This document shows positions 1-8,851 of a stretch of DNA of 12,116 nt, one piece after another (position 1 is the first letter of the stretch; each line of letters starts with the position of its first letter). This DNA comes from Actinomycetes bacterium (GTDB taxonomy: Bacteria; Actinomycetota; Acidimicrobiia; Acidimicrobiales; Microtrichaceae), in assembly GCA_023423475.1 (NCBI GenBank), contig JAFAFN010000590.1:1-12116 (forward strand). The letters run 5' to 3'. A program made the position numbers and the translations under genes. The notes under the pieces are model-generated. The model saw nothing but the letters and a program-made list of their open reading frames with translations, was not told the origin of the DNA and did not search any database.

Positions 1-2008
1 ACGGACCGTCGAGCTCGAGTCCCTCGATGAAGCGATCGACGAACGCCCTGTTGCGGACACGGCGCATCGGCGGGAGCAGCTGGAGCATCTGCTCGCGGTA
101 GCGGGCCTCGGCGAGTCGGGAGTCGCACACCGCCACCACACCTCGGTCGGTCGCCGTGCGGATCAGTCGGCCGACGCCCTGGGCGAGCTGCATGCCCGCG
201 GCCGGCACCGAGACCGCCATGAACGCGCGCTCGTCGCCGACGAGCTCGGACCGGGCCTCGACGATGGGGTCGCTCGGCACGGGGAACGGGATCTTGTCGA
301 GCACGACCGCGCTGCAGGTCGTGCCGGGACTGGACATGCCCGTCCAGAAGCTCGCCGTCGCGAACAGGCAGGCGTGCTCCTCGGTGACGAAGCGCTCCTG
401 GAGCACGGGGTTCGGAGCGTCGCCCTGTGAGAGCAGCACGAAGTCGTCGCCGAGCGCGGCCCGGCAGCGCTCCACCGTCGCTCGCAGCATCGAGTTCGAC
501 GTGAACAGCGCGAGCGTGCGGCCGTTGCAGGCCCGGATGAGGTGCTCGATCTCCGCGGCGACCTGTTCGGGCCACTGCGGCTGGTTCGGCCGAGCGATCT
601 TGGGCACGTAGAGCAGCGCGTGGTCCTGGAAGTTGAACGGCGATGCCACCGAGATGAACGTGGCGTCGAGCCCGAGGCGCTTCGCGGTCCCGGGATCGAG
701 CGTCGCCGAGCAGCACACGACGGTGAGCTCATCGTCCTCCCAGGCCCGCTTGCGGAGCGTCGCGGCGACGTCGATGCGCGTGAGTCGGACCGCGTGTCGA
801 TCGGAGCGGGTGGTCTCGACCCAGCAGACCGCACCCGGCTCGAGCTTGCCGAGCAGGGCCTGCGTGTCGTTGACCGCGGACTCGGCGGTGCGCACGGCGC
901 GGTCGATGCGGTGTCGGGCCGAGGACTCCCCGGCGTTCTTCGCCGCGACGCGGAGGCTGTTGAGCGCACGGTCCGACGCGGACAGCGCGGAGGACAGCGC
1001 ACCGCTGAGGGCGACACCGGGGCCGTCGTGCAGACGCAGCGAGGTCGGCGTGCCACCCTGGTGGCCGCGGTTCGCCGCCACCGCGACCAGCTCGCCCTGG
1101 AGCGCCGCCTCGAGGGTCTCCGCAGCGGTCCGCAGCGAGCGGGACACGATCTCGTCGCCCGCGACGCAGCGGTCGTGCACCCTGGCGAGGTTCGCGAGCC
1201 GGCCTGCGGTCATCTCGATCGACAGCGATCCGACGATGGAGTCCTCGAACTCGTGCGCCTCGTCGATCACGAGCTGGGTGTGCGGCGGCAGCAGCGTCCG
1301 GCCCGTCTGGATGTGTGCCCCGTAGAGGTGCGCGTTGACGACGACGATCTTGGCCGCCTCGGCACGTTCGCGGGCCCGCTCGGACCAGCACTCCTCGGAG
1401 TACGAGCACCGTGAGGCTCCGACGCACTCTCCCGGTCCCACCGAGACCGCTCCCCAGGCCTTCCAGTGCGGGGTGAACGGCAGCTCGGCCATGTCGCCGG
1501 ACGTGGTCGACTCGGACCACTCGAGGATCTGCTCGACCTCGGCGACCAGCGCCTCGTCGTCGAGCTCGTCGCTGCCGGCGGTCGGTTCGTCCATGTCGAG
1601 GCGTTGCTGGGTGGCGCCGTGCAGCTGGACCCGCACCTCGGACGCGGCGGCTTCGCAGAGGTAGTTGGAACGCCCCTTGAGCACGGCGTAGTCGACGGGC
1701 ACGTCGAGCACCGACGCAAGGAAGGGCAGCTCGACCTCGGCCAGCTGGTCCTGGAGCGCACGGGACGACGTCACCACGACCGTGCGCGTGCCACGGGTCG
1801 CCGCCGCGACCGCGGGGAGCAGGTAGGCCAGCGACTTCCCCACGCCCGTCGGACCCTGCACCGCCAGGTGCTGCCCGCTACGGAAGGCGTCGTCGACCGC
1901 CTCGACCATCTCACGCTGGGACGGCCGGTCCTCGCCGTCGGGGATCGAGGCGACCACCGTCGTCAACAGGTCGCCGGGCGCGACGGAGGGACTGGCGGTC
2001 GGGGACAT
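1..2008 (-). CDS. dinG: DinG/XPD-family ATP-dependent DNA helicase (C-terminus cut by window edge)
   Basis: Superfamily 2 iron-sulfur helicase, expected to unwind DNA 5'-3' in repair or R-loop removal. I read an uninterrupted minus-strand frame of 669 codons from ATG at 2008. It shows a Q-motif-like SQRE near residue 30, a Walker A GPTGVGKS at 52-59, a DEAH box at 249-252, and motif VI QGVGRLIR at 610-617. Four cysteines between the Walker A and DEAH boxes (C118, C195, C201, C207) match the 4Fe-4S ligands of XPD/DinG proteins. The visible end (VRNRAFVDRFIEG) lies close to the usual C-terminus, so probably only a few residues are missing. No clear Shine-Dalgarno precedes the ATG. The gene begins 31 bp after the stop of the LPXTG protein gene and may share its transcript. 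The family call is firm; the symbol follows common actinobacterial usage. Confidence 0.93.
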   Translation of the reverse strand, partial: MSPTASPSVAPGDLLTTVVASIPDGEDRPSQREMVEAVDDAFRSGQHLAVQGPTGVGKSLAYLLPAVAAATRGTRTVVVTSSRALQDQLAEVELPFLASVLDVPVDYAVLKGRSNYLCEAAASEVRVQLHGATQQRLDMDEPTAGSDELDDEALVAEVEQILEWSESTTSGDMAELPFTPHWKAWGAVSVGPGECVGASRCSYSEECWSERARERAEAAKIVVVNAHLYGAHIQTGRTLLPPHTQLVIDEAHEFEDSIVGSLSIEMTAGRLANLARVHDRCVAGDEIVSRSLRTAAETLEAALQGELVAVAANRGHQGGTPTSLRLHDGPGVALSGALSSALSASDRALNSLRVAAKNAGESSARHRIDRAVRTAESAVNDTQALLGKLEPGAVCWVETTRSDRHAVRLTRIDVAATLRKRAWEDDELTVVCCSATLDPGTAKRLGLDATFISVASPFNFQDHALLYVPKIARPNQPQWPEQVAAEIEHLIRACNGRTLALFTSNSMLRATVERCRAALGDDFVLLSQGDAPNPVLQERFVTEEHACLFATASFWTGMSSPGTTCSAVVLDKIPFPVPSDPIVEARSELVGDERAFMAVSVPAAGMQLAQGVGRLIRTATDRGVVAVCDSRLAEARYREQMLQLLPPMRRVRNRAFVDRFIEGLELDGP

Positions 2009-2039
2009 CGGCCCAAGACTAGGAGCGGACCGAGGGCCC

Positions 2040-2909
2040 TCAGTGGAGCCTGCGCCCCGGAGGGCTCGGTGCTCGTCGGCCACGGATCATCAACACGAGG
2101 CCGCAGGCCGTCATGACCACCGCGAGTGCGACGAGCGAGCCGATGCCGGCGCCGGTGAAGGGCAGGCGGCCGGGGGTCCCGCCGCTGGACGGCCCGGAGC
2201 CGCCACCCGGACCCAGCGGCGGTCGAACGGCCGCATCGGTGGGACGCGGCGTGCTGATCGACGTCGTCGGCCCCGGGCCGGTGGTGCTCGGACCTGCCGT
2301 CGTCGGCACCGCGGTCGTCGGCCCTGTGGTCGTGGTCGGGCAGGCGTCGCCCCACACCACCAGTGAGCGCACGGTGCCGGTCGCGCCCTGGAGCTCGTTC
2401 CCGGTCGTCGCCGGCAGATGCGCCCTGAACATGGCGTACCAGATCGCGCCGGGTGCGAGGTTCGGTGCGTGGTGCTCGAGGTCGCCGTCGAGCACCGTCG
2501 CCGGGATCTCGACACGGGCGCCACTGGCACAGGTCGCCGGTGCGGCTCCCACGGACGGTGTCCACGGTTCGATGCACACGTCGAGTCCGATGCGGAGCGC
2601 GTCGAGCACTTCACCGGTGGGCTCGAGGGTCACCTCGATGGCGAGTGGGCCGTCGGTGGTGTTCTCGACGGTCATCGGCCACTGCCGGGTCGACCCCGGC
2701 GCCAGGTCGGGGAAGTCGATCGTGTCCGAGGTGCCCGCCGGATCGGCGTCACCGCCCCCGCAGAGCTGCGCTGCTGCGTCGCCGAGCGCGATCACCAGCA
2801 CGATCGTCACCACTGCCGCCGCGACGAGGCCCGTGGCGGGCCCGCCGAGGCGGGGACGGCCGCGGTCCATCACCGGTCGCCGTCCCACGTGTCGGTCGTC
2901 CCGGTTCAT
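2040..2909 (-). CDS. Secreted, LPXTG-anchored surface protein of the SipW/TasA-like operon
   Basis: Predicted 289-residue cell-wall protein, last of four overlapping genes. A basic N-terminus (to about residue 20) is followed by a hydrophobic segment at 24-47 ending in DAAA, a plausible signal peptide. Residues about 60-190 form a beta-rich domain with an APGSTRQWPMTVENTTDG stretch, reminiscent of the 'LxPG...VxNxG' part of TasA/CalY-like proteins, and cysteines C112, C127 and C190. A Thr/Pro-rich stalk (191-245) leads to LPFTG at 249-253, a hydrophobic helix at 254-275 and a basic RGRR tail, the layout of a class A sortase substrate. The ATG at 2909 overlaps the RCC1 gene stop as ATGA, which favours it over the in-frame ATG at 2870. 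No sortase gene is visible. The wall-anchor reading is strong; the ectodomain family is inferred and its function unknown. Confidence 0.85.
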   Translation of the reverse strand: MNRDDRHVGRRPVMDRGRPRLGGPATGLVAAAVVTIVLVIALGDAAAQLCGGGDADPAGTSDTIDFPDLAPGSTRQWPMTVENTTDGPLAIEVTLEPTGEVLDALRIGLDVCIEPWTPSVGAAPATCASGARVEIPATVLDGDLEHHAPNLAPGAIWYAMFRAHLPATTGNELQGATGTVRSLVVWGDACPTTTTGPTTAVPTTAGPSTTGPGPTTSISTPRPTDAAVRPPLGPGGGSGPSSGGTPGRLPFTGAGIGSLVALAVVMTACGLVLMIRGRRAPSPPGRRLH

Positions 2910-4345
2910 GGAGCGACCAACAGGATCGTGGTGGCACTGCCGACGGCCACGGCGACCGCCGATGCAGCGAGCGGCAGTTGCGACGCCGGCTGGCGGAGCA
3001 CCGCGCCGGGCACGACGGCGTCGGGTCCGGGTCCGACGCCCAGCTGGCCCGACGCGTTCGACCCCCAGCAGTAGGCCGACGACGTGGCGGGTGCGCCAGA
3101 GAGCACGCAGAAGGTGCTCGACGCCGTCGGACCTCGCCCCGCGGCCAGGCCGGACGCGGTGCCGAGGGGCAGCTGCGAGGCGCCGGTCCCCACCCTGGCG
3201 ACCTCGGTCGCGGTGCGCACCACGTTCGAGCTCGTCCCGGTGTCGATCGTGATGTCGGCACCGAGCTGACCAGAGCGGTTCGTGCCCCAGCAGTACGGGG
3301 TGCCGTCGTGCAGCACGCACGCGGAGCTGGCGCCGACTGCCACCTCGGTCACCAACGCCGTCGCCGGCAGGGACGATGCCGGAGCGGTCTGGACCGGAAT
3401 CGGAACGGTCTGGGCGACTCCGGGAAGGCCGGTTCCGTCTCCAAGCTGACCGTATCCAGACCAGCCCCAGCACCACGCGGATCCTGATGCCACCGCGCAG
3501 ACAGTCTCGGGTCCCAGCGAGACGTCGGTGACCGCACCGGTGCTCCACATCGCAACCGTGGCTACGGGCACCGTCACGCCGGTCGCAGAATTGATTCCGT
3601 TGCCGAGCCGTCCGTGGAGTCGGCTGCCCCAGCAGTACAGGCGTCCTGCAGCGATGGCGCACGCGTAGGCGCCCTGACCGCTGCCGCCGGTCTCGACATC
3701 GGTCACCGTCCCGGCAGGCAGGGTCGAGCCGGCGGTACCGACCACGGCGACGGCACGAGGCACCGAGCTGGCGAGGAACGAGCCGTCACCGAGCTGGCCC
3801 GAGGTGTTGTCGCCCCAGCAGTACACGCGCCCGGCGGCGACGGCACAGGCGAAGCCGTCCGCCACCGAGACATCGGTGACCGTCGCCGACGACGGGAGCT
3901 GCGAGCCGCCCGGATCGGCCTCGGTGAGCACGGACACCGCCAGCGGATGGTCCGTCGTGGTGCCGTCGCCGAGCTGGCCCATGTCGTTGGAGCCCCAGCA
4001 GGCGGCACGTCCGACGGCGACGGCGCAGCCCGACGTGGTCCCGAGGCTCACCGAGGACACCGAGAGCCCATCGGGGATCGCGCTGCCCGCCGGCACCAGC
4101 ACCCGGACCGCCGTGTTGCGGTCACCCGTGCCGCCCGAGGCGAAGGTCCCGGTGGCGTCGCTGCCCTGCGCCCACCAGAGCGTCGGGACGACGGCCACGT
4201 CGGTGTCAACCTCCGCACGGTCCGACAGCTCAGCATCCGTCACCGCAGGAGCGGGCACCGCAGCGAGGACGGCGACGGCGAGCCCCGCCGCCAGCGCGAT
4301 CACCGGCAGCGACCCCCTGAGCTCTCGGTCCCCGTGGCGCCGCAT
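2906..4345 (-). CDS. Secreted RCC1-repeat beta-propeller protein
   Basis: Predicted 479-residue exported propeller. The N-terminus has a basic start and a hydrophobic segment at 12-35. Six RCC1-type repeats follow with cores C-x8-C-W-G...GQLGDG: the CWG cysteines are at 116, 176, 238, 292, 352 and 426. A partner cysteine lies 9 residues before the first five and 13 before the last, so each blade probably carries a disulfide. Residues 56-80 (LWWAQGSDATGTF) resemble the second half of a repeat and the last 20 residues the first half, so the ends could close a seventh blade. There is no LPXTG motif or C-terminal membrane helix. The ATG at 4345 shares its A with the preceding signal peptidase stop (TGATG). 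RCC1-like propellers bind proteins or ligands; the partner is unknown. A longer N-terminal start up to 4489 is possible in frame but would overlap the peptidase gene. Confidence 0.88.
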   Translation of the reverse strand: MRRHGDRELRGSLPVIALAAGLAVAVLAAVPAPAVTDAELSDRAEVDTDVAVVPTLWWAQGSDATGTFASGGTGDRNTAVRVLVPAGSAIPDGLSVSSVSLGTTSGCAVAVGRAACWGSNDMGQLGDGTTTDHPLAVSVLTEADPGGSQLPSSATVTDVSVADGFACAVAAGRVYCWGDNTSGQLGDGSFLASSVPRAVAVVGTAGSTLPAGTVTDVETGGSGQGAYACAIAAGRLYCWGSRLHGRLGNGINSATGVTVPVATVAMWSTGAVTDVSLGPETVCAVASGSAWCWGWSGYGQLGDGTGLPGVAQTVPIPVQTAPASSLPATALVTEVAVGASSACVLHDGTPYCWGTNRSGQLGADITIDTGTSSNVVRTATEVARVGTGASQLPLGTASGLAAGRGPTASSTFCVLSGAPATSSAYCWGSNASGQLGVGPGPDAVVPGAVLRQPASQLPLAASAVAVAVGSATTILLVAP

Positions 4346-4896
4346 CAGCTCACCCGGTAGGGCACATCGTCGATCCAGAGGACCGCGCGAGTGCGGCGGC
4401 GGGTCTCGGTCCCGGCAGCCCAACAGGCCCAGCCGGCCAGTGCACCCGCCACGAAGACCGCCCACGGGCTGTCGAGTGCGGTCATCCATCGACCGACGAG
4501 CGGCACGGATCCGACCACGAGGTCCGCCGTCGCGGCGACGTGGGGGCGCGGGTCGGGACCGGGGTTGGCGTCGCCCTGCAGGGTCATCGACATCGTGCCG
4601 TCCGTCGGGTCCACGACCGAGAGGTCCACCACACGGTGGGTGACCCGCGATCCGTCGTCGCGTTCGACGCTCACGACCGCGCCGGGCTCGAGTGCCGCCG
4701 CGGGGGTCGACCGGGCGATGGCCAGGGAGCCGACGGGCAGCGACGGCTCCATCGACGAGCCGGCGACGATCAGGGGTCGCAGGTCGAGGACCGCGGCGGC
4801 CGCCACGAGCAGCAGACAGGCACAGCCCAGCACCGCGCCGAGGTCGAGCAGGCGTCGACGGGGTCGACGGGGCCGACGGCCACCGTGATCAGACAC
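4345..4896 (-). CDS. sipW: ER-type (SipW-class) signal peptidase I
   Basis: Membrane serine peptidase of the S26B type, 183 residues, expected to remove signal peptides of TasA-like substrates. A very basic N-terminus (RRPRRPRRR) precedes a membrane helix at about 17-40, then the box with nucleophile S48 (GSSMEP). The basic residue is H87 in VTHRVV rather than the lysine of ordinary bacterial LepB enzymes, and QGDANPGPDP (D109, D115) supplies the acidic box; this is the Ser-His arrangement of archaeal, eukaryotic and SipW enzymes. A second hydrophobic helix lies at about 144-162, with a basic stretch after it. The start is GTG at 4896, overlapping the end of the TasA-like gene by 8 bp, with a GGAG-like sequence about 9 bases upstream. 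It sits between the TasA-like gene and the RCC1 gene, as expected for a dedicated processing enzyme. The symbol denotes the class, not proven orthology to Bacillus SipW. Confidence 0.9.
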   Translation of the reverse strand: MSDHGGRRPRRPRRRLLDLGAVLGCACLLLVAAAAVLDLRPLIVAGSSMEPSLPVGSLAIARSTPAAALEPGAVVSVERDDGSRVTHRVVDLSVVDPTDGTMSMTLQGDANPGPDPRPHVAATADLVVGSVPLVGRWMTALDSPWAVFVAGALAGWACWAAGTETRRRTRAVLWIDDVPYRVS

Positions 4897-5470
4897 CCGC
4901 CTGCTCCGCGACGAAGTCGAAGGTCACCGTGGCCGACCCGCCGCCGGTGCCGACGACGGAATCGGGCAGCCCGACCGCGATGCAGAGGTCGACGGCATCC
5001 CCTCCGGCGAGGGGGACGTCGGCGAACGCCACGCTGCCGATCGGCTCATCGATCGCGTAGGGCGCCACGGCGCCGGCGACGACCCCCGCGTCGCAGGCGG
5101 TGCCGGTGGTCGGGACCACCGACATGAGCAGCTCCTCGGGCGTGTCCGGTCCAAGTGGGTCGAGCTCGAGCGAGGTGGCGAGCGACAGGTCGGCATCGAC
5201 GTCGCCGATGTTCGCGACCTCGAGAGGGGAGTAGACCGTCTCGCCCGGCGCGATCCGGTCCGCCCCGGCGACGACCAGCTCGTAGGGCACCGGGTTGCCC
5301 TGCTCTCCGTCGACGGTGATGTCCAGCGTCCCCACGGTGAAGCCAGCGGTCACCTCGGCGGAGTCGGAGAACGCCGCCGAGGTGAGGATCCCTCCGAGTG
5401 CGAGCACGCCGCCCACTCCCAGGAGGATCCGCAGACGATCACCGAACATCGATCCCACGGTCGTCGACAT
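4889..5470 (-). CDS. TasA/CalY-like secreted protein with SipW-type signal peptide
   Basis: Predicted 193-residue exported protein, first gene of the surface operon. The N-terminus has RLR (12-14), a hydrophobic stretch at 15-30 and then TSAAFSDSAEVTAGFTVGTLDI, with the 'AAF-S/N-D ... F..GTLD' pattern that follows the signal peptide in Bacillus TasA and camelysin. The mature part contains an APGETVYSPLEVANIGDVDA segment, again like TasA, with cysteines C123 and C156 and no C-terminal membrane helix. TasA forms extracellular matrix fibres and camelysin is a surface protease-like protein; which activity, if any, applies here cannot be told. I chose the ATG at 5470 because GGAAGG lies 8 bases upstream; an in-frame GTG at 5479 overlaps that ribosome site. 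The 3' end overlaps the signal peptidase gene by 8 bp. Confidence 0.85.
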   Translation of the reverse strand: MSTTVGSMFGDRLRILLGVGGVLALGGILTSAAFSDSAEVTAGFTVGTLDITVDGEQGNPVPYELVVAGADRIAPGETVYSPLEVANIGDVDADLSLATSLELDPLGPDTPEELLMSVVPTTGTACDAGVVAGAVAPYAIDEPIGSVAFADVPLAGGDAVDLCIAVGLPDSVVGTGGGSATVTFDFVAEQAGV

Positions 5471-5478
5471 CTCGAGCA

Positions 5479-5486
5479 CCTTCCCA
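5479..5486 (-). promoter_or_regulatory. Ribosome binding site of the TasA-like gene
   Basis: A GGGAAGG sequence on the minus strand lies about 8 bases before the ATG at 5470. It is the clearest Shine-Dalgarno in the four-gene operon and decides against the in-frame GTG at 5479. The three downstream genes start within the ends of their predecessors and appear to depend on translational coupling. Confidence 0.6.
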
Positions 5487-5560
5487 TCGACATCATTGCG
5501 TCCACACTGTGTCGGCAGACGCGGGAGGACGCTGAAGTCGATGGATCCGGATGGACCAAG

Positions 5561-5607
5561 GACATGGTCCGCCCGACCCAGCGCGTCGGCGCCGGGCGGA
5601 CCATGTC
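5561..5607 (-). terminator. Strong 15-bp stem-loop, probable former terminator of the glcD-like/ilvX-like operon
   Basis: GACATGGTCCGCCCG (5561-5575) is repeated exactly as its reverse complement at 5593-5607, with a 17-base loop. No T-run follows on either strand, so it would be a hairpin-only terminator; an operator or other RNA structure is also possible. If the insertion sequence is removed in thought, the hairpin begins about 6 bases past the junction beside the end of the ThDP enzyme gene, which favours a terminator for that operon. Confidence 0.5.
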
Positions 5608-5613
5608 GTCAGT

Positions 5614-5634
5614 GCTCTGACCCTGATATTGCAG
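5614..5634 (+). repeat. Left terminal inverted repeat of the IS1380-family element
   Basis: Begins GCTCTGACCCTGATATT and matches the reverse complement of 7284-7304 at 19 of 21 positions; similarity continues a few more bases if one gap is allowed (a shared TGGGT). Confidence 0.85.
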
Positions 5635-5740
5635 GTGGGTTGGGGTTGTTGATGCTGTGAGCGCGACAAGTGCCCCTGCTGGCTGGCACGATTCGAAGTG
5701 CGACCTACGAATTGTGACCGGCCAGAGGAGCACCTGACAG

Positions 5741-7147
5741 GTGAACGCTACCGCGCTGTTGTTCGACGCTGGTGAGACCGTTGCTCGTCCCCGACGCCAA
5801 GCGGCCCGGCTGGCGGTGGAACGCTCCGGTGATGACGTGACCGGGATCGCTGGGGCGGCGTTGTGGGGTCCATTCTTGGACCGCTTGAACGTGGTCGACG
5901 CGGCGGACGAGATCGGGCTCCGTCCGATCGGCTCGGGTGGCTACACCGGTGGCGAGTGCTACCGGACCCTGGTCGAGGTGCTCCTCGCTGGCGGTGATTT
6001 CCTCTCGGATCGGTCGCTGCTCGCTGGGGCGACCCAGCGGCTCCGGGGAGCGCATCGGTTGCCGTCACACACCACGTTGTTTCGGTTCTGCGCGGGCGCG
6101 GATCTCGGTCGGGCGCAGAAGGCTGCGGCGGTGAACCGCACGATGCTGGCTCGGGCGTGGGCGATGGGGTTCGGGCCTTCGGGCGGGGTCGTCACGATCG
6201 ACCCGGACGCGACGGGTGTCGCGACCTACGGACCTGGCAAGGAAGGGTCCAGGTTCAGCTACAGCGGTCAGACAGGGCTGTCGCCGCTGCTCGGCATGTG
6301 CGGCGAGACCGGTGACGTGCTCGCGGTTCGAGCCCGCTCCGGGAGCGCGAACCCGGGCCGGGCGATGGGCAGCTTCATCAGCGAATGCGTCTCGGCGATC
6401 CCGCGTCAGGTCCGCGCCGAGAAGAACCTGTGGGTCCGGATCGATTCCGCCGGGTTCCAACTCGAGGTGTTCGACACCTGTGACCGGCTCGGCGCCGCGT
6501 TCAGTGTGACTGCCCGCCAGCAAGCCAACGTGCGAGCAGCGATCGAGACGCTCGCTGCGGACCCCGACACGGTGTGGGTCCCGGCGCTCGGCGCCGAGCA
6601 CGCCCTGGGTTCCGAGATCGCCGAAACCCACCTCGATGTCGGTGTTCGTCACGTCGGTTCCCGACGTCGCCTCCGGTTGATCGTGCGGCGTCAACGCCGC
6701 AGCGTCGGAGACCAACTCTCCTTCGATGACCTCGATGGGTGGCGGTTCCACGCGATCGTGACGAACCTGCCCGCTTGGTTCGCTCCACCCGAGGAGGTCG
6801 AAGCACATCACCGGCTCCGAGGCGGGGTCCCCGAAGACACCATCCGGCAACTCAAGGAGGACTACGGACTCATCCACGCACCGGTCGGCAACTTCTTCGG
6901 GAACTGGCTCTGGTGGCACGCATGCGCGCTCGCACACAACATCGGGCACTGGATCCGCGACCACTTCCTCCCCGAAGAGTTCCGACGCTGCCGCGGCAAA
7001 CGACTCCGAATCGCGTTCTTCAACGCCCCCGCCCGAGTCGTGACCCACGCACGCGGCCTTCAGCTCCGCCTCCCCAGATCACACCGCTGGGGCGCAGAGT
7101 TCATCGCAGCACTTACCAGGATCCGAGCACTCCCAGCCTTCGCCTGA
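5741..7147 (+). CDS. IS1380-family DDE transposase
   Basis: Full-length 468-residue transposase that would cut and paste the surrounding element. The likely catalytic triad is D154 (VVTIDPDATG), D235 (WVRIDSAGF) and E365 (GGVPEDTIRQLKEDYG), with the spacing expected of an RNase H-like DDE domain interrupted by a beta-rich insertion before the glutamate. The HRLRGGVPEDTIRQLK segment followed by GLIHAP and a Trp/His-rich helix (NWLWWHACALAHNI) is typical of the family. The N-terminal segment (about 1-130) should hold the DNA-binding domain. Translation starts at GTG 5741, with AGAGGAG at 5724-5730. No frameshift or stop interrupts the frame, so the element may be active. It is the only plus-strand gene in the window. 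Confidence 0.92.
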   Translation: MNATALLFDAGETVARPRRQAARLAVERSGDDVTGIAGAALWGPFLDRLNVVDAADEIGLRPIGSGGYTGGECYRTLVEVLLAGGDFLSDRSLLAGATQRLRGAHRLPSHTTLFRFCAGADLGRAQKAAAVNRTMLARAWAMGFGPSGGVVTIDPDATGVATYGPGKEGSRFSYSGQTGLSPLLGMCGETGDVLAVRARSGSANPGRAMGSFISECVSAIPRQVRAEKNLWVRIDSAGFQLEVFDTCDRLGAAFSVTARQQANVRAAIETLAADPDTVWVPALGAEHALGSEIAETHLDVGVRHVGSRRRLRLIVRRQRRSVGDQLSFDDLDGWRFHAIVTNLPAWFAPPEEVEAHHRLRGGVPEDTIRQLKEDYGLIHAPVGNFFGNWLWWHACALAHNIGHWIRDHFLPEEFRRCRGKRLRIAFFNAPARVVTHARGLQLRLPRSHRWGAEFIAALTRIRALPAFA

Positions 7148-7283
7148 CCGGCCAGGCCAACGAGCACCTTCCGACGCCGGACAACACAGAGCCACCGCAG
7201 CACCCGTCACCGTCACGTCCCCGAACGCCCCCACCAAGCCGAGCCCACCAAACCCCGGCCCAGACCACCCGGCCACACACCCA

Positions 7284-7304
7284 CTGAAATATCCGGGTCA
7301 GAGC
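7284..7304 (-). repeat. Right terminal inverted repeat of the IS1380-family element
   Basis: Reads GCTCTGACCCGGATATTTC on the minus strand and pairs with 5614-5634. Its outer bases overlap the last codons of the upstream gene: the CTC-TGA that ends the ThDP enzyme lies at 7303-7298, inside this repeat. Confidence 0.85.
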
Positions 7305-8851
7305 GTGGGCGGGAGGATGGCCTCGACGAGGTTCGGGCCCGGAGTCGCCAGCGCCGCCTCGAGCTGCTCGGTGAACTCCTCGGCGGTCGTCGCGCGGGTC
7401 GCGCTGACACCCATCCCACGGGCGATCGACACGAAGTCGAGCGTGGGGTTGGTGAGGTCGAGCATCTCGAGCGCCTTCGGTCCGGGATCGGCGCCGACCC
7501 GGGTGAGCTCGAGGTTCAAGATGGCGTACGACTGGTTGTTGAGGATGACCGTCGTGACGTCGAGGCCCTCGCGGACCTGGGTCCACAGGGACTGGATCGT
7601 GTACATCGCACTGCCGTCCGCCTGGAGGTTGACCACGCGACGTCCCGGGCTGGCGACCGCGGCGCCGGTGGCGACGGGCATGCCGTAGCCGATGGCGCCA
7701 CCGGGCAGACACAGCCAATCGTGGCGTGGGGCGCCGGCGGTGAACCCAGCGGCGAAGAGCCCTGCGGTGTTGCCCTCGTCGACGACGATGGCGTCCTCGG
7801 GCAGCAGCGCCCCGAGTGCCGATGCCAACGTGTCGGCCTTCAACTCGCCGGTGGGGCGGTCCGGTCGGAACGCCGGGGCCAGGTCCGCTGCGTCGGGCGC
7901 TGCGCCGAGTGCGTCCGCGAGCGCTTCGAGCGCGGCGGTGGAGTCCTCGCCGGGCTGCGAGAGCACGTGCACGGTGCAGCCGTCGGGCACGAGGTCCGAC
8001 GCCTTGTCCGGGTAGGCGAAGAAGGACACCGGCGACGCCGCCTCGACGAGGATGAGGTGGTCGAGTCCATCGAGCTGCGCCTGCGCGAACTCCGCGAGGT
8101 ACCCCAGGCGGTCGAACGCCGGGAGCCCTGCGCCCCGCTCGAGACGAGCGGGGAAGGTCTCGACGATGACCTTCGCTGCCGATGTCGTGGACACACGTGA
8201 GGCGGCGAGCAGACCGGCCTCGCGGGTGACGCTGCCTCCGACGAGGATGCCGACGGATGCGTCCGAGCGGAGCACGTCGGCGATCGACTCGATCACGTCC
8301 GTCGCGACCGGACGGCGCGGCTCGATCGCCCGGGGGGCGACGGGGCCCGGCGCCTCGAGCCAGCAGACGTCGGCGGGGAGGATCAGCGTGGCGACCTCTC
8401 CGGGCGGGCCCATGGCGGCCGCCACCGCGTCCGCGGCGTCGTCCGCGACCTCGGCGGGGTCCGTCGAGGAGCGGATCCACGTCGAGACACCCTTGGCGAT
8501 GCTGTGGATGTCGCTCTGCAACGGGGCGTCGTACTTGGCGTGGTACGTGGCGTGGTCGCCGATGATGTTGACGATCGGGGTCCGGCCACGACGGGCGTTG
8601 TGCAGGTTGGCCAGGCCGTTACCGAGGCCGGGTCCCAGGTGCAGCAGCACCGCGGCCGGCTTGTCGGCCATGCGGGCGTAGCCGTCTGCTGCACCGGTGG
8701 CCACGCCCTCGAAGAGGGCCAGGACCGAGTGCATCTCGGGCACGTCGTCGAGCGCGGCGACGAAGTGCATCTCGGAGGTGCCGGGGTTCATGAAGCAGGT
8801 GTCGACGCCGGCGTCGACGAGTGTCCGGATGAGTGCGTGTGCACCGTTCAT
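7298..8851 (-). CDS. ilvX: ThDP-dependent enzyme, IlvX-like / acetolactate synthase-benzoylformate decarboxylase superfamily
   Basis: Predicted 517-residue cytoplasmic thiamine-diphosphate enzyme acting on a 2-oxoacid. The N-terminal PYR domain has NPGTSE (22-27), the cofactor-activating glutamate E48 (ALFEGVATGAADGYA) and H71 (LLHLGPGLGN). The C-terminal PP domain binds Mg-ThDP through D412 (QADGSAMYTIQSLWT) and N438/N439. The first glycine of the usual GDG is alanine. Length and the MNGAxALI...NPGTSEMHF start resemble mycobacterial IlvX, recalled from memory and not compared by alignment. H71 and the SAMYTIQSLW segment are more like benzoylformate decarboxylase than a biosynthetic acetolactate synthase, and no small subunit gene is nearby, so a catabolic decarboxylase or carboligase is plausible. 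A GGAG precedes the ATG by 10 bases. It follows the GlcD-like gene by 49 bp. Its stop codon lies within the insertion sequence end, so the last residue or two may be altered. Confidence 0.85.
   Translation of the reverse strand: MNGAHALIRTLVDAGVDTCFMNPGTSEMHFVAALDDVPEMHSVLALFEGVATGAADGYARMADKPAAVLLHLGPGLGNGLANLHNARRGRTPIVNIIGDHATYHAKYDAPLQSDIHSIAKGVSTWIRSSTDPAEVADDAADAVAAAMGPPGEVATLILPADVCWLEAPGPVAPRAIEPRRPVATDVIESIADVLRSDASVGILVGGSVTREAGLLAASRVSTTSAAKVIVETFPARLERGAGLPAFDRLGYLAEFAQAQLDGLDHLILVEAASPVSFFAYPDKASDLVPDGCTVHVLSQPGEDSTAALEALADALGAAPDAADLAPAFRPDRPTGELKADTLASALGALLPEDAIVVDEGNTAGLFAAGFTAGAPRHDWLCLPGGAIGYGMPVATGAAVASPGRRVVNLQADGSAMYTIQSLWTQVREGLDVTTVILNNQSYAILNLELTRVGADPGPKALEMLDLTNPTLDFVSIARGMGVSATRATTAEEFTEQLEAALATPGPNLVEAILPPTL

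Follow-up and report, generated by a model that had tools for sequence, protein, structure and literature searches.

How is a TasA-type fibre attached to the cell, and what does it carry at its end? Both points are unsettled in the papers cited below, as far as the portions available to us go, and TapA has been argued there to start the fibre. The two questions are raised by a four-gene operon found in a 12,116 nt stretch (the window, meaning this whole stretch) of contig JAFAFN010000590.1, from an Actinomycetes bacterium of the family Microtrichaceae (GenBank assembly GCA_023423475.1). We read it as a SipW/TasA-type operon with two additions, encoding a donor-strand TasA fibre, one end of which would be wall-anchored and the other capped by a propeller (probability about 0.5). 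The sequence itself shows the gene set, the TasA-like character of gene 1 and of gene 4, a start of gene 3 that appears SipW/TasA-like, and a sorting signal. The genes form a minus-strand set (2040-5470) as follows:

4889-5470, minus strand: gene 1, TasA/camelysin-like exported protein, proposed fibre shaft (ATG start, 193 amino acids (aa); alternative start, GTG at 5479)
4345-4896, minus strand: gene 2, endoplasmic reticulum (ER)/archaeal-type (SipW-like) signal peptidase (GTG start, 183 aa)
2906-4345, minus strand: gene 3, secreted seven-repeat RCC1 propeller (ATG start, 479 aa)
2040-2909, minus strand: gene 4, TasA-like domain, P/T/G-rich stalk and LPFTG sorting signal (ATG start, 289 aa)

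Re-derivation of the open reading frame (ORF) positions confirmed the successive overlaps of 8, 1 and 4 bp that a first-pass annotation of this DNA, made from the sequence alone, had given. Third-position GC (guanine plus cytosine) content is 0.85-0.90 across the four genes, with values of 0.91 and 0.94 for two neighbouring genes. Scans of 1950-5750 found neither a sigma-70-like promoter site nor a terminator-like site.

By family models, gene 1 is TasA-like, as had been claimed: it matches camelysin (PF12389, 25.4 bits; cut-off 22.5) and the SipW-dependent signal (TIGR04088, 21.1 bits; cut-off 19). Its assignment as a true TasA equivalog was rejected, as NCBI model NF046066 does not match it; this model gives weak matches in seven of the twenty gene 1 family members (best E 0.0031). 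Foldseek comparison of the predicted structure placed an archaeal bundling pilin (7ueg) and the TasA fibre (8aur) at the top and VIA-align placed TasA chains there, in both cases with unrelated folds close behind; the predicted fold is no more than compatible with a TasA-like assignment. A sequence search of solved structures with genes 1 and 2 gave no result. TasA subunits of Bacillus are joined by donor strands, the strand of subunit n being inserted into subunit n+1 (PMC9674648, portions available), and TapA, which starts AFHDI where TasA starts AFNDI, has been proposed to donate that strand (PMC10151520, portions available). Candidate segments of this type were located in both gene 1 and gene 3:

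5339-5371, minus strand: proposed N-terminal donor strand of gene 1 after SipW-type cleavage, residues 34-44, FSDSAEVTAGF (from motif conservation)
4196-4228, minus strand: TasA/TapA-like N-terminal segment of gene 3, residues 40-50, LSDRAEVDTDV, directly before the first propeller repeat (from motif counts)

The F-S-D-x-A-x-V start is present in all twenty members of the gene 1 family. In the predicted model, residues 18-60 of gene 1, which include this stretch, have a predicted local distance difference test (pLDDT) score below 50.

Similarity places gene 2 among the SipW/ER-type peptidases, as first annotated, although its scores lie below all curated cut-offs: the top model was the archaeal-type signal peptidase TIGR02228 (44 bits; cut-off 51.85), with NF046067 (31 bits; cut-off 190) and PF10502 (16.4 bits; cut-off 22.9) also falling short. 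It contains the motifs SMEP (at 48), VTHRV (at 85) and GDAN (at 108), which we take to be the Ser and His boxes of an ER-type signal peptidase, and hydrophobic stretches lie toward each end (near residues 14-46 and 140-165). Its identity to the peptidases adjoining TasA-like genes in two acidimicrobial loci is 41-42% (L092 and L091, 42% to the latter), and that of L091 exceeds the TIGR02228 cut-off (71.8 bits).

Gene 3 encodes the secreted RCC1-repeat protein that had been described (PF00415, 117.9 bits; cut-off 21.7). Six CWG units spaced 54-74 residues apart, together with LWWA at residue 56, make seven repeats; these span residue 56 to the C-terminus, and a TapA-type Ig domain is lacking. 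As seven units are already present, the N-terminal segment seems extra to the propeller. Gene 3 belongs to a clade with 15 full-length relatives (45-66% identity) and one fragment (P0053), whose N-termini read A-x-L-x-D, then mostly x-A, then P-T-L-W-W. The A-x-L-x-D motif occurs within the first 75 residues of 17/17 clade members and 4/103 other listed RCC1 proteins, these four matches all lying inside a repeat or away from any signal end; TLW[WF] occurs within the first 110 residues of 17/17 and 0/103, respectively. These controls are longer proteins (median 774 aa, shortest 489), and the listing comprised the best 120 of 7,322 matches. Gene 3 and its 15 relatives were chosen by length and identity before the N-termini were inspected, the fragment joining later; since the motif was derived from the clade before being counted in it, 17/17 describes a feature of the clade and is no independent test. 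On the comparison with the controls, a generic RCC1 protein was rejected for gene 3. Within the segment, position 5 is A in 15/17 clade members and 20/20 gene 1 family members, while position 11 carries one of F, V, I and L in 13/17 and 20/20; position 7, the V of the gene 1 family start (20/20), is V in just 4/17. The gene 3 N-terminus thus seems to resemble a SipW/TasA start, as that of TapA does in Bacillus, and because gene 3 carries it the module would be more integrated than the first-pass annotation held.

Gene 4 had been described as a stalked LPFTG protein, and its parts bear this out:

2340-2768, minus strand: TasA-like domain, residues 48-190, with cysteines at 50, 112, 127 and 190
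2166-2339, minus strand: stalk, residues 191-248 (58 residues: 13 P, 15 T, 12 G, 6 S), from composition
2043-2165, minus strand: sortase signal, residues 249-289, with LPFTG (249-253), a hydrophobic stretch and an RGRR tail

No Pfam family matched gene 4, and the NCBIfam LPXTG models matched it below cut-off only. Its domain is homologous to TasA-like proteins, as judged from comparison with three TasA-like ORFs (E 6.5e-7, 9.5e-6 and 3e-5; best of 300 shuffles, 0.01), which ruled out a featureless stalk protein. TasA did not appear among the 50 rows listed by Foldseek for the gene 4 model, whose fold may nonetheless be of the TasA type. The relation of the first and last proteins to TasA/CalY was therefore upheld, for gene 1 by family models and for gene 4 by sequence, and structure prediction did not show the two to be unrelated to such folds. 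Two features thus appear to go beyond what was first proposed: gene 4 is itself TasA-like, and gene 3 falls in an RCC1 clade with a SipW/TasA-like start. Gene 4 seems to lack an N-terminal joining strand. No dedicated sortase was found among the eight window proteins scanned by Pfam, which lends no support to the self-contained module that had been supposed; sortase (PF04203) was found in 32 of the 33 family genomes searched, and an LPFTG protein would therefore likely find an enzyme.

From this arrangement we infer that gene 2 performs the cleavage, that the subunits assemble by donor strands, and that the fibre is anchored to the wall and has a polarity. The general export machinery would carry the products of genes 1 and 3 outward, and the SipW-like gene 2 product would remove their signals, leaving N-termini that start F-S-D (gene 1) or L-S-D (gene 3). 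The new N-terminus of gene 1 (FSDxAxV...F) would insert as a donor strand into the following subunit and complete its beta-sandwich, in the manner of TasA. Gene 3, as a second substrate with a strand and no groove, would start or cap the fibre like TapA and carry the propeller, while gene 4, with a groove and no strand, would receive the final donor strand and tie the fibre to the wall, a housekeeping sortase fixing gene 4 to peptidoglycan. By the TasA rule (strand n into n+1), gene 4 would then lie proximal to the wall and the propeller distal. Such a fibre might be a Gram-positive counterpart of chaperone-usher pili built by donor-strand joining, in which gene 4 would supply a base with a groove alone, gene 1 a shaft that has both strand and groove, and gene 3 an exchangeable tip with a strand alone (an RCC1 propeller in this operon, FN3 in related ones), release being by a dedicated SipW-type peptidase; we regard this wider comparison as doubtful.

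Some results for genes 3 and 4 are weaker. Against a TasA-like start of gene 3, the SipW-signal model TIGR04088 matched none of the 16 gene 3 clade members scanned, and hhalign comparison of the gene 3 N-terminal and gene 1 alignments gave only P 0.029, though at the expected stretch. The TasA comparison is weaker for the domain of P0005, the one listed gene 4 relative (0.074), and for gene 1 itself against the gene 4 domain (0.13), and hhalign of the latter domain gave P 0.046. Polarity is the weakest step of the mechanism.

The alternative that survives best, and which we consider a serious though tentative one, is that these are SipW-processed proteins that are co-expressed only: gene 1 would form a fibre or coat, the propeller and the LPFTG protein would be separate adhesins, and A-x-[FL]-x-D would be a recognition sequence of the peptidase. 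The part common to genes 1 and 3 is indeed short and takes in the presumed peptidase site, and polymerisation of BsaA in Clostridium perfringens requires neither BsaB nor BsaC nor the adjacent sortase (PMC7395162, portions available). Several exported proteins likewise stand beside SipW-like peptidases in loci L094 and L095. However, the likeness extends past the start, to positions 5 and 11 as counted above, and gene 4 belongs to a fibre-protein family, which would be needless for mere cargo.

It is improbable that the conserved N-terminal segment of gene 3 is instead a closing strand of the propeller, unrelated to fibres. RCC1 propellers can close with terminal strands, and conservation in the clade continues directly into the first repeat, but LWWA at 56 and the C-terminal strands already give the propeller its full seven repeats, and the motif is missing from the first 75 residues of 99 of the 103 other RCC1 proteins.

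Chance origin of the set appears unlikely, because relatives are listed for gene 1 (19), gene 3 (many) and gene 4 (one), and those of genes 1, 3 and 4 (P0012, P0029 and P0005) are each listed on a contig of 11,861 nt. Equal listed contig sizes were also found for genes 1 and 3 at 359,997 nt (P0011, P0053) and 15,221 nt (P0017, P0037). A longest contig of at least 5 kb is listed for five of the 19 relatives of gene 1, and in three of the five it equals in size that of an RCC1 clade member; no contig size was common to the 103 control RCC1 proteins and any of the 19. These searches scored the roughly 8,000 candidates with the most shared words. The equal listed sizes, compared for genes 1, 3 and 4, point to genes 1 and 3 lying together on three other contigs, with gene 4 also present on one of them.

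The gene set is rare. Relatives of gene 1 were found in 0/33 genomes of the family, in 10/397 genomes of the order, where they are distant, and in 4/395 genomes of the class sample, two of which were already among the ten; seven candidates per genome were scored for gene 1 in the order and class, six for gene 4 in the order and 11 for RCC1 in the class. The gene 4 alignment matched 56/397 genomes of the order at E 0.01, mostly in the stalk and LPXTG columns only. The RCC1 N-terminal alignment matched 15/395 genomes of the class at E 1e-12, but all 17 listed matches start at column 48 or later, which makes them plain RCC1 repeats outside the gene 3 clade. In the ten gene 1-relative regions of the order (4-18 kb) there was no RCC1 motif and a single LPXTG-like C-terminus, in L095, without a convincing sorting signal; several of these regions are short contigs (4.1-8.7 kb), so that neighbouring genes are possibly cut off. 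A scan of genome contigs with the gene 1 alignment turned up 54 stretches fitting the pattern but no confirmed relative, and searches of viral contigs (gene 1 and gene 3 N-terminal alignments) and of plasmids (gene 1) gave no result. The first-pass expectation of co-occurrence in relatives thus holds in part, for genes 1 and 3 on what seem to be three other contigs, and fails in the family and in the ten order regions; its proposal that the four proteins are made in a fixed order stands as to gene order only.

In loci L091 and L092, the order is TasA-like gene, SipW-like gene and a third gene overlapping sipW by 8 bp (5959-6399 and 7594-8025, respectively). The third genes encode short exported FN3-like proteins with an A-S-F-x-D-x-A start; the FN3 match is above the cut-off of 25 bits in L091 (32.4 bits) and below it in L092 (23 bits), and TIGR04088 matches neither product. 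They are possibly a second kind of fibre-end protein. Their order, sipW overlap and A-x-F-x-D-x-A start of the third gene are shared with the window's operon, whereas an FN3-like domain takes the place of the propeller and no LPXTG C-terminus occurs in the regions read. As a separate observation, L094 (6471-13778) and L095 (951-7417) hold larger clusters, in the same order in both genomes, with two SipW-like peptidase genes each; the peptidase part belongs to long fusion proteins of 572-997 aa, and the clusters also encode several short exported proteins, some of them TasA-like.

How far do known systems go toward the same combination? The following comparisons refer to the available portions of the papers cited. 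The tapA-sipW-tasA operon of Bacillus subtilis likewise has a TasA-like subunit, a SipW peptidase and a third protein with a donor-strand-like start (PMC9674648, PMC10151520), and its tapA and sipW genes overlap too; it differs in gene order, in that the folded part of TapA is an Ig domain rather than an RCC1 propeller, and in that no sortase-anchored TasA-like protein comparable to gene 4 is described there. The Bacillus cereus locus of sipW-tasA, capP (BC1280) and calY unites SipW, two TasA-like proteins and an accessory protein, but is described as sortase-independent, whereas one TasA-like protein here bears LPFTG, and CapP is a chaperone-like two-domain protein for which no propeller is described (PMC13082335). 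In C. perfringens, sipW-bsaABCRSD encodes a SipW-dependent polymer-forming protein with accessory secreted proteins; no LPXTG was found in BsaA, the neighbouring srtB is not needed and no RCC1 protein is described (PMC7395162). Honeybee bifidobacteria, also actinobacteria, have surface RCC1 proteins tied to sortase anchoring, but with LPxTG anchor and propeller in one protein and with no mention of SipW/TasA genes (PMC4449606). Each half therefore has a precedent, one in the SipW, two TasA-like proteins and CapP of B. cereus and the other in the bifidobacterial LPxTG-RCC1 proteins. In the open-licence literature (subscription journals lay outside the search), no paper joining SipW and RCC1 was found, nor a TasA-like LPFTG protein, a propeller with a TasA-like start or the union of both halves, in agreement with the first-pass remark that its author was aware of no described system joining SipW/TasA, an RCC1 propeller and a sortase substrate.

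The surroundings of the operon include an insertion sequence (IS) and related features:

5741-7147, plus strand: IS1380-family transposase (NF033539, 234.7 bits; cut-off 180)
5614-5640 and 7279-7304: inverted terminal-repeat-like arms of the IS (compared by eye)
5561-5607, no strand assigned: inverted repeat separating gene 1 from the IS, with perfect 15-bp arms around a 17-nt loop

One arm of the element (5614-7304) reaches the stop codon of a thiamine pyrophosphate (TPP)-enzyme gene and the other lies about 144 bp upstream of gene 1; no target duplication was recognised by eye. The element may have displaced or supplied the operon promoter, and the 15-bp repeat is possibly an operator or an IS/terminator hairpin. 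Upstream of the operon, the IS on the opposite strand is followed by the TPP-enzyme gene and a flavin adenine dinucleotide (FAD)-oxidase gene. Downstream, on the same strand as the operon, a helicase gene (PF13307, 114.9 bits; PF00270, 50.5 bits; both above cut-off) starts with ATG at 2008 and continues past the window end. Among 80 relative loci, the FAD-oxidase is at most 78% identical to its relatives, the closest being in L002, titled Microthrixaceae, and none showed DNA similarity to 2040-7300 at E 1e-3. In four loci (L007, L009, L019, L021) whose assemblies bear the title Bifidobacterium breve, the FAD-oxidase (66-75%) and TPP (63-78%) genes are like those of the window, and these titles therefore look wrong for those metagenome contigs.

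A complete TPP gene with at least 400 nt past its end was available in 54 of the 80 loci. In three of these (L001, L012, L013) the helicase match starts no more than about 80 nt past the TPP gene or overlaps it, leaving no room, so that the operon and IS site is empty in some relatives. That the operon and the IS1380 element form a recently gained, possibly non-functional islet between two genes adjacent in such relatives is highly improbable, even though gene 1 is found in none of the 33 family genomes and the IS adjoins the operon, since each of the four genes has an open frame and a coding composition, further contigs seem to carry the set as well, and the absence of a helicase match after the TPP gene in the other 51 loci indicates that the junction itself varies.

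The operon would offer sequence-defined candidates for both ends of a TasA-type fibre, in a group of actinobacteria known so far mainly through metagenomes. Judging from it, the third position in SipW/TasA operons may be a slot for varied folded domains behind one joining segment.

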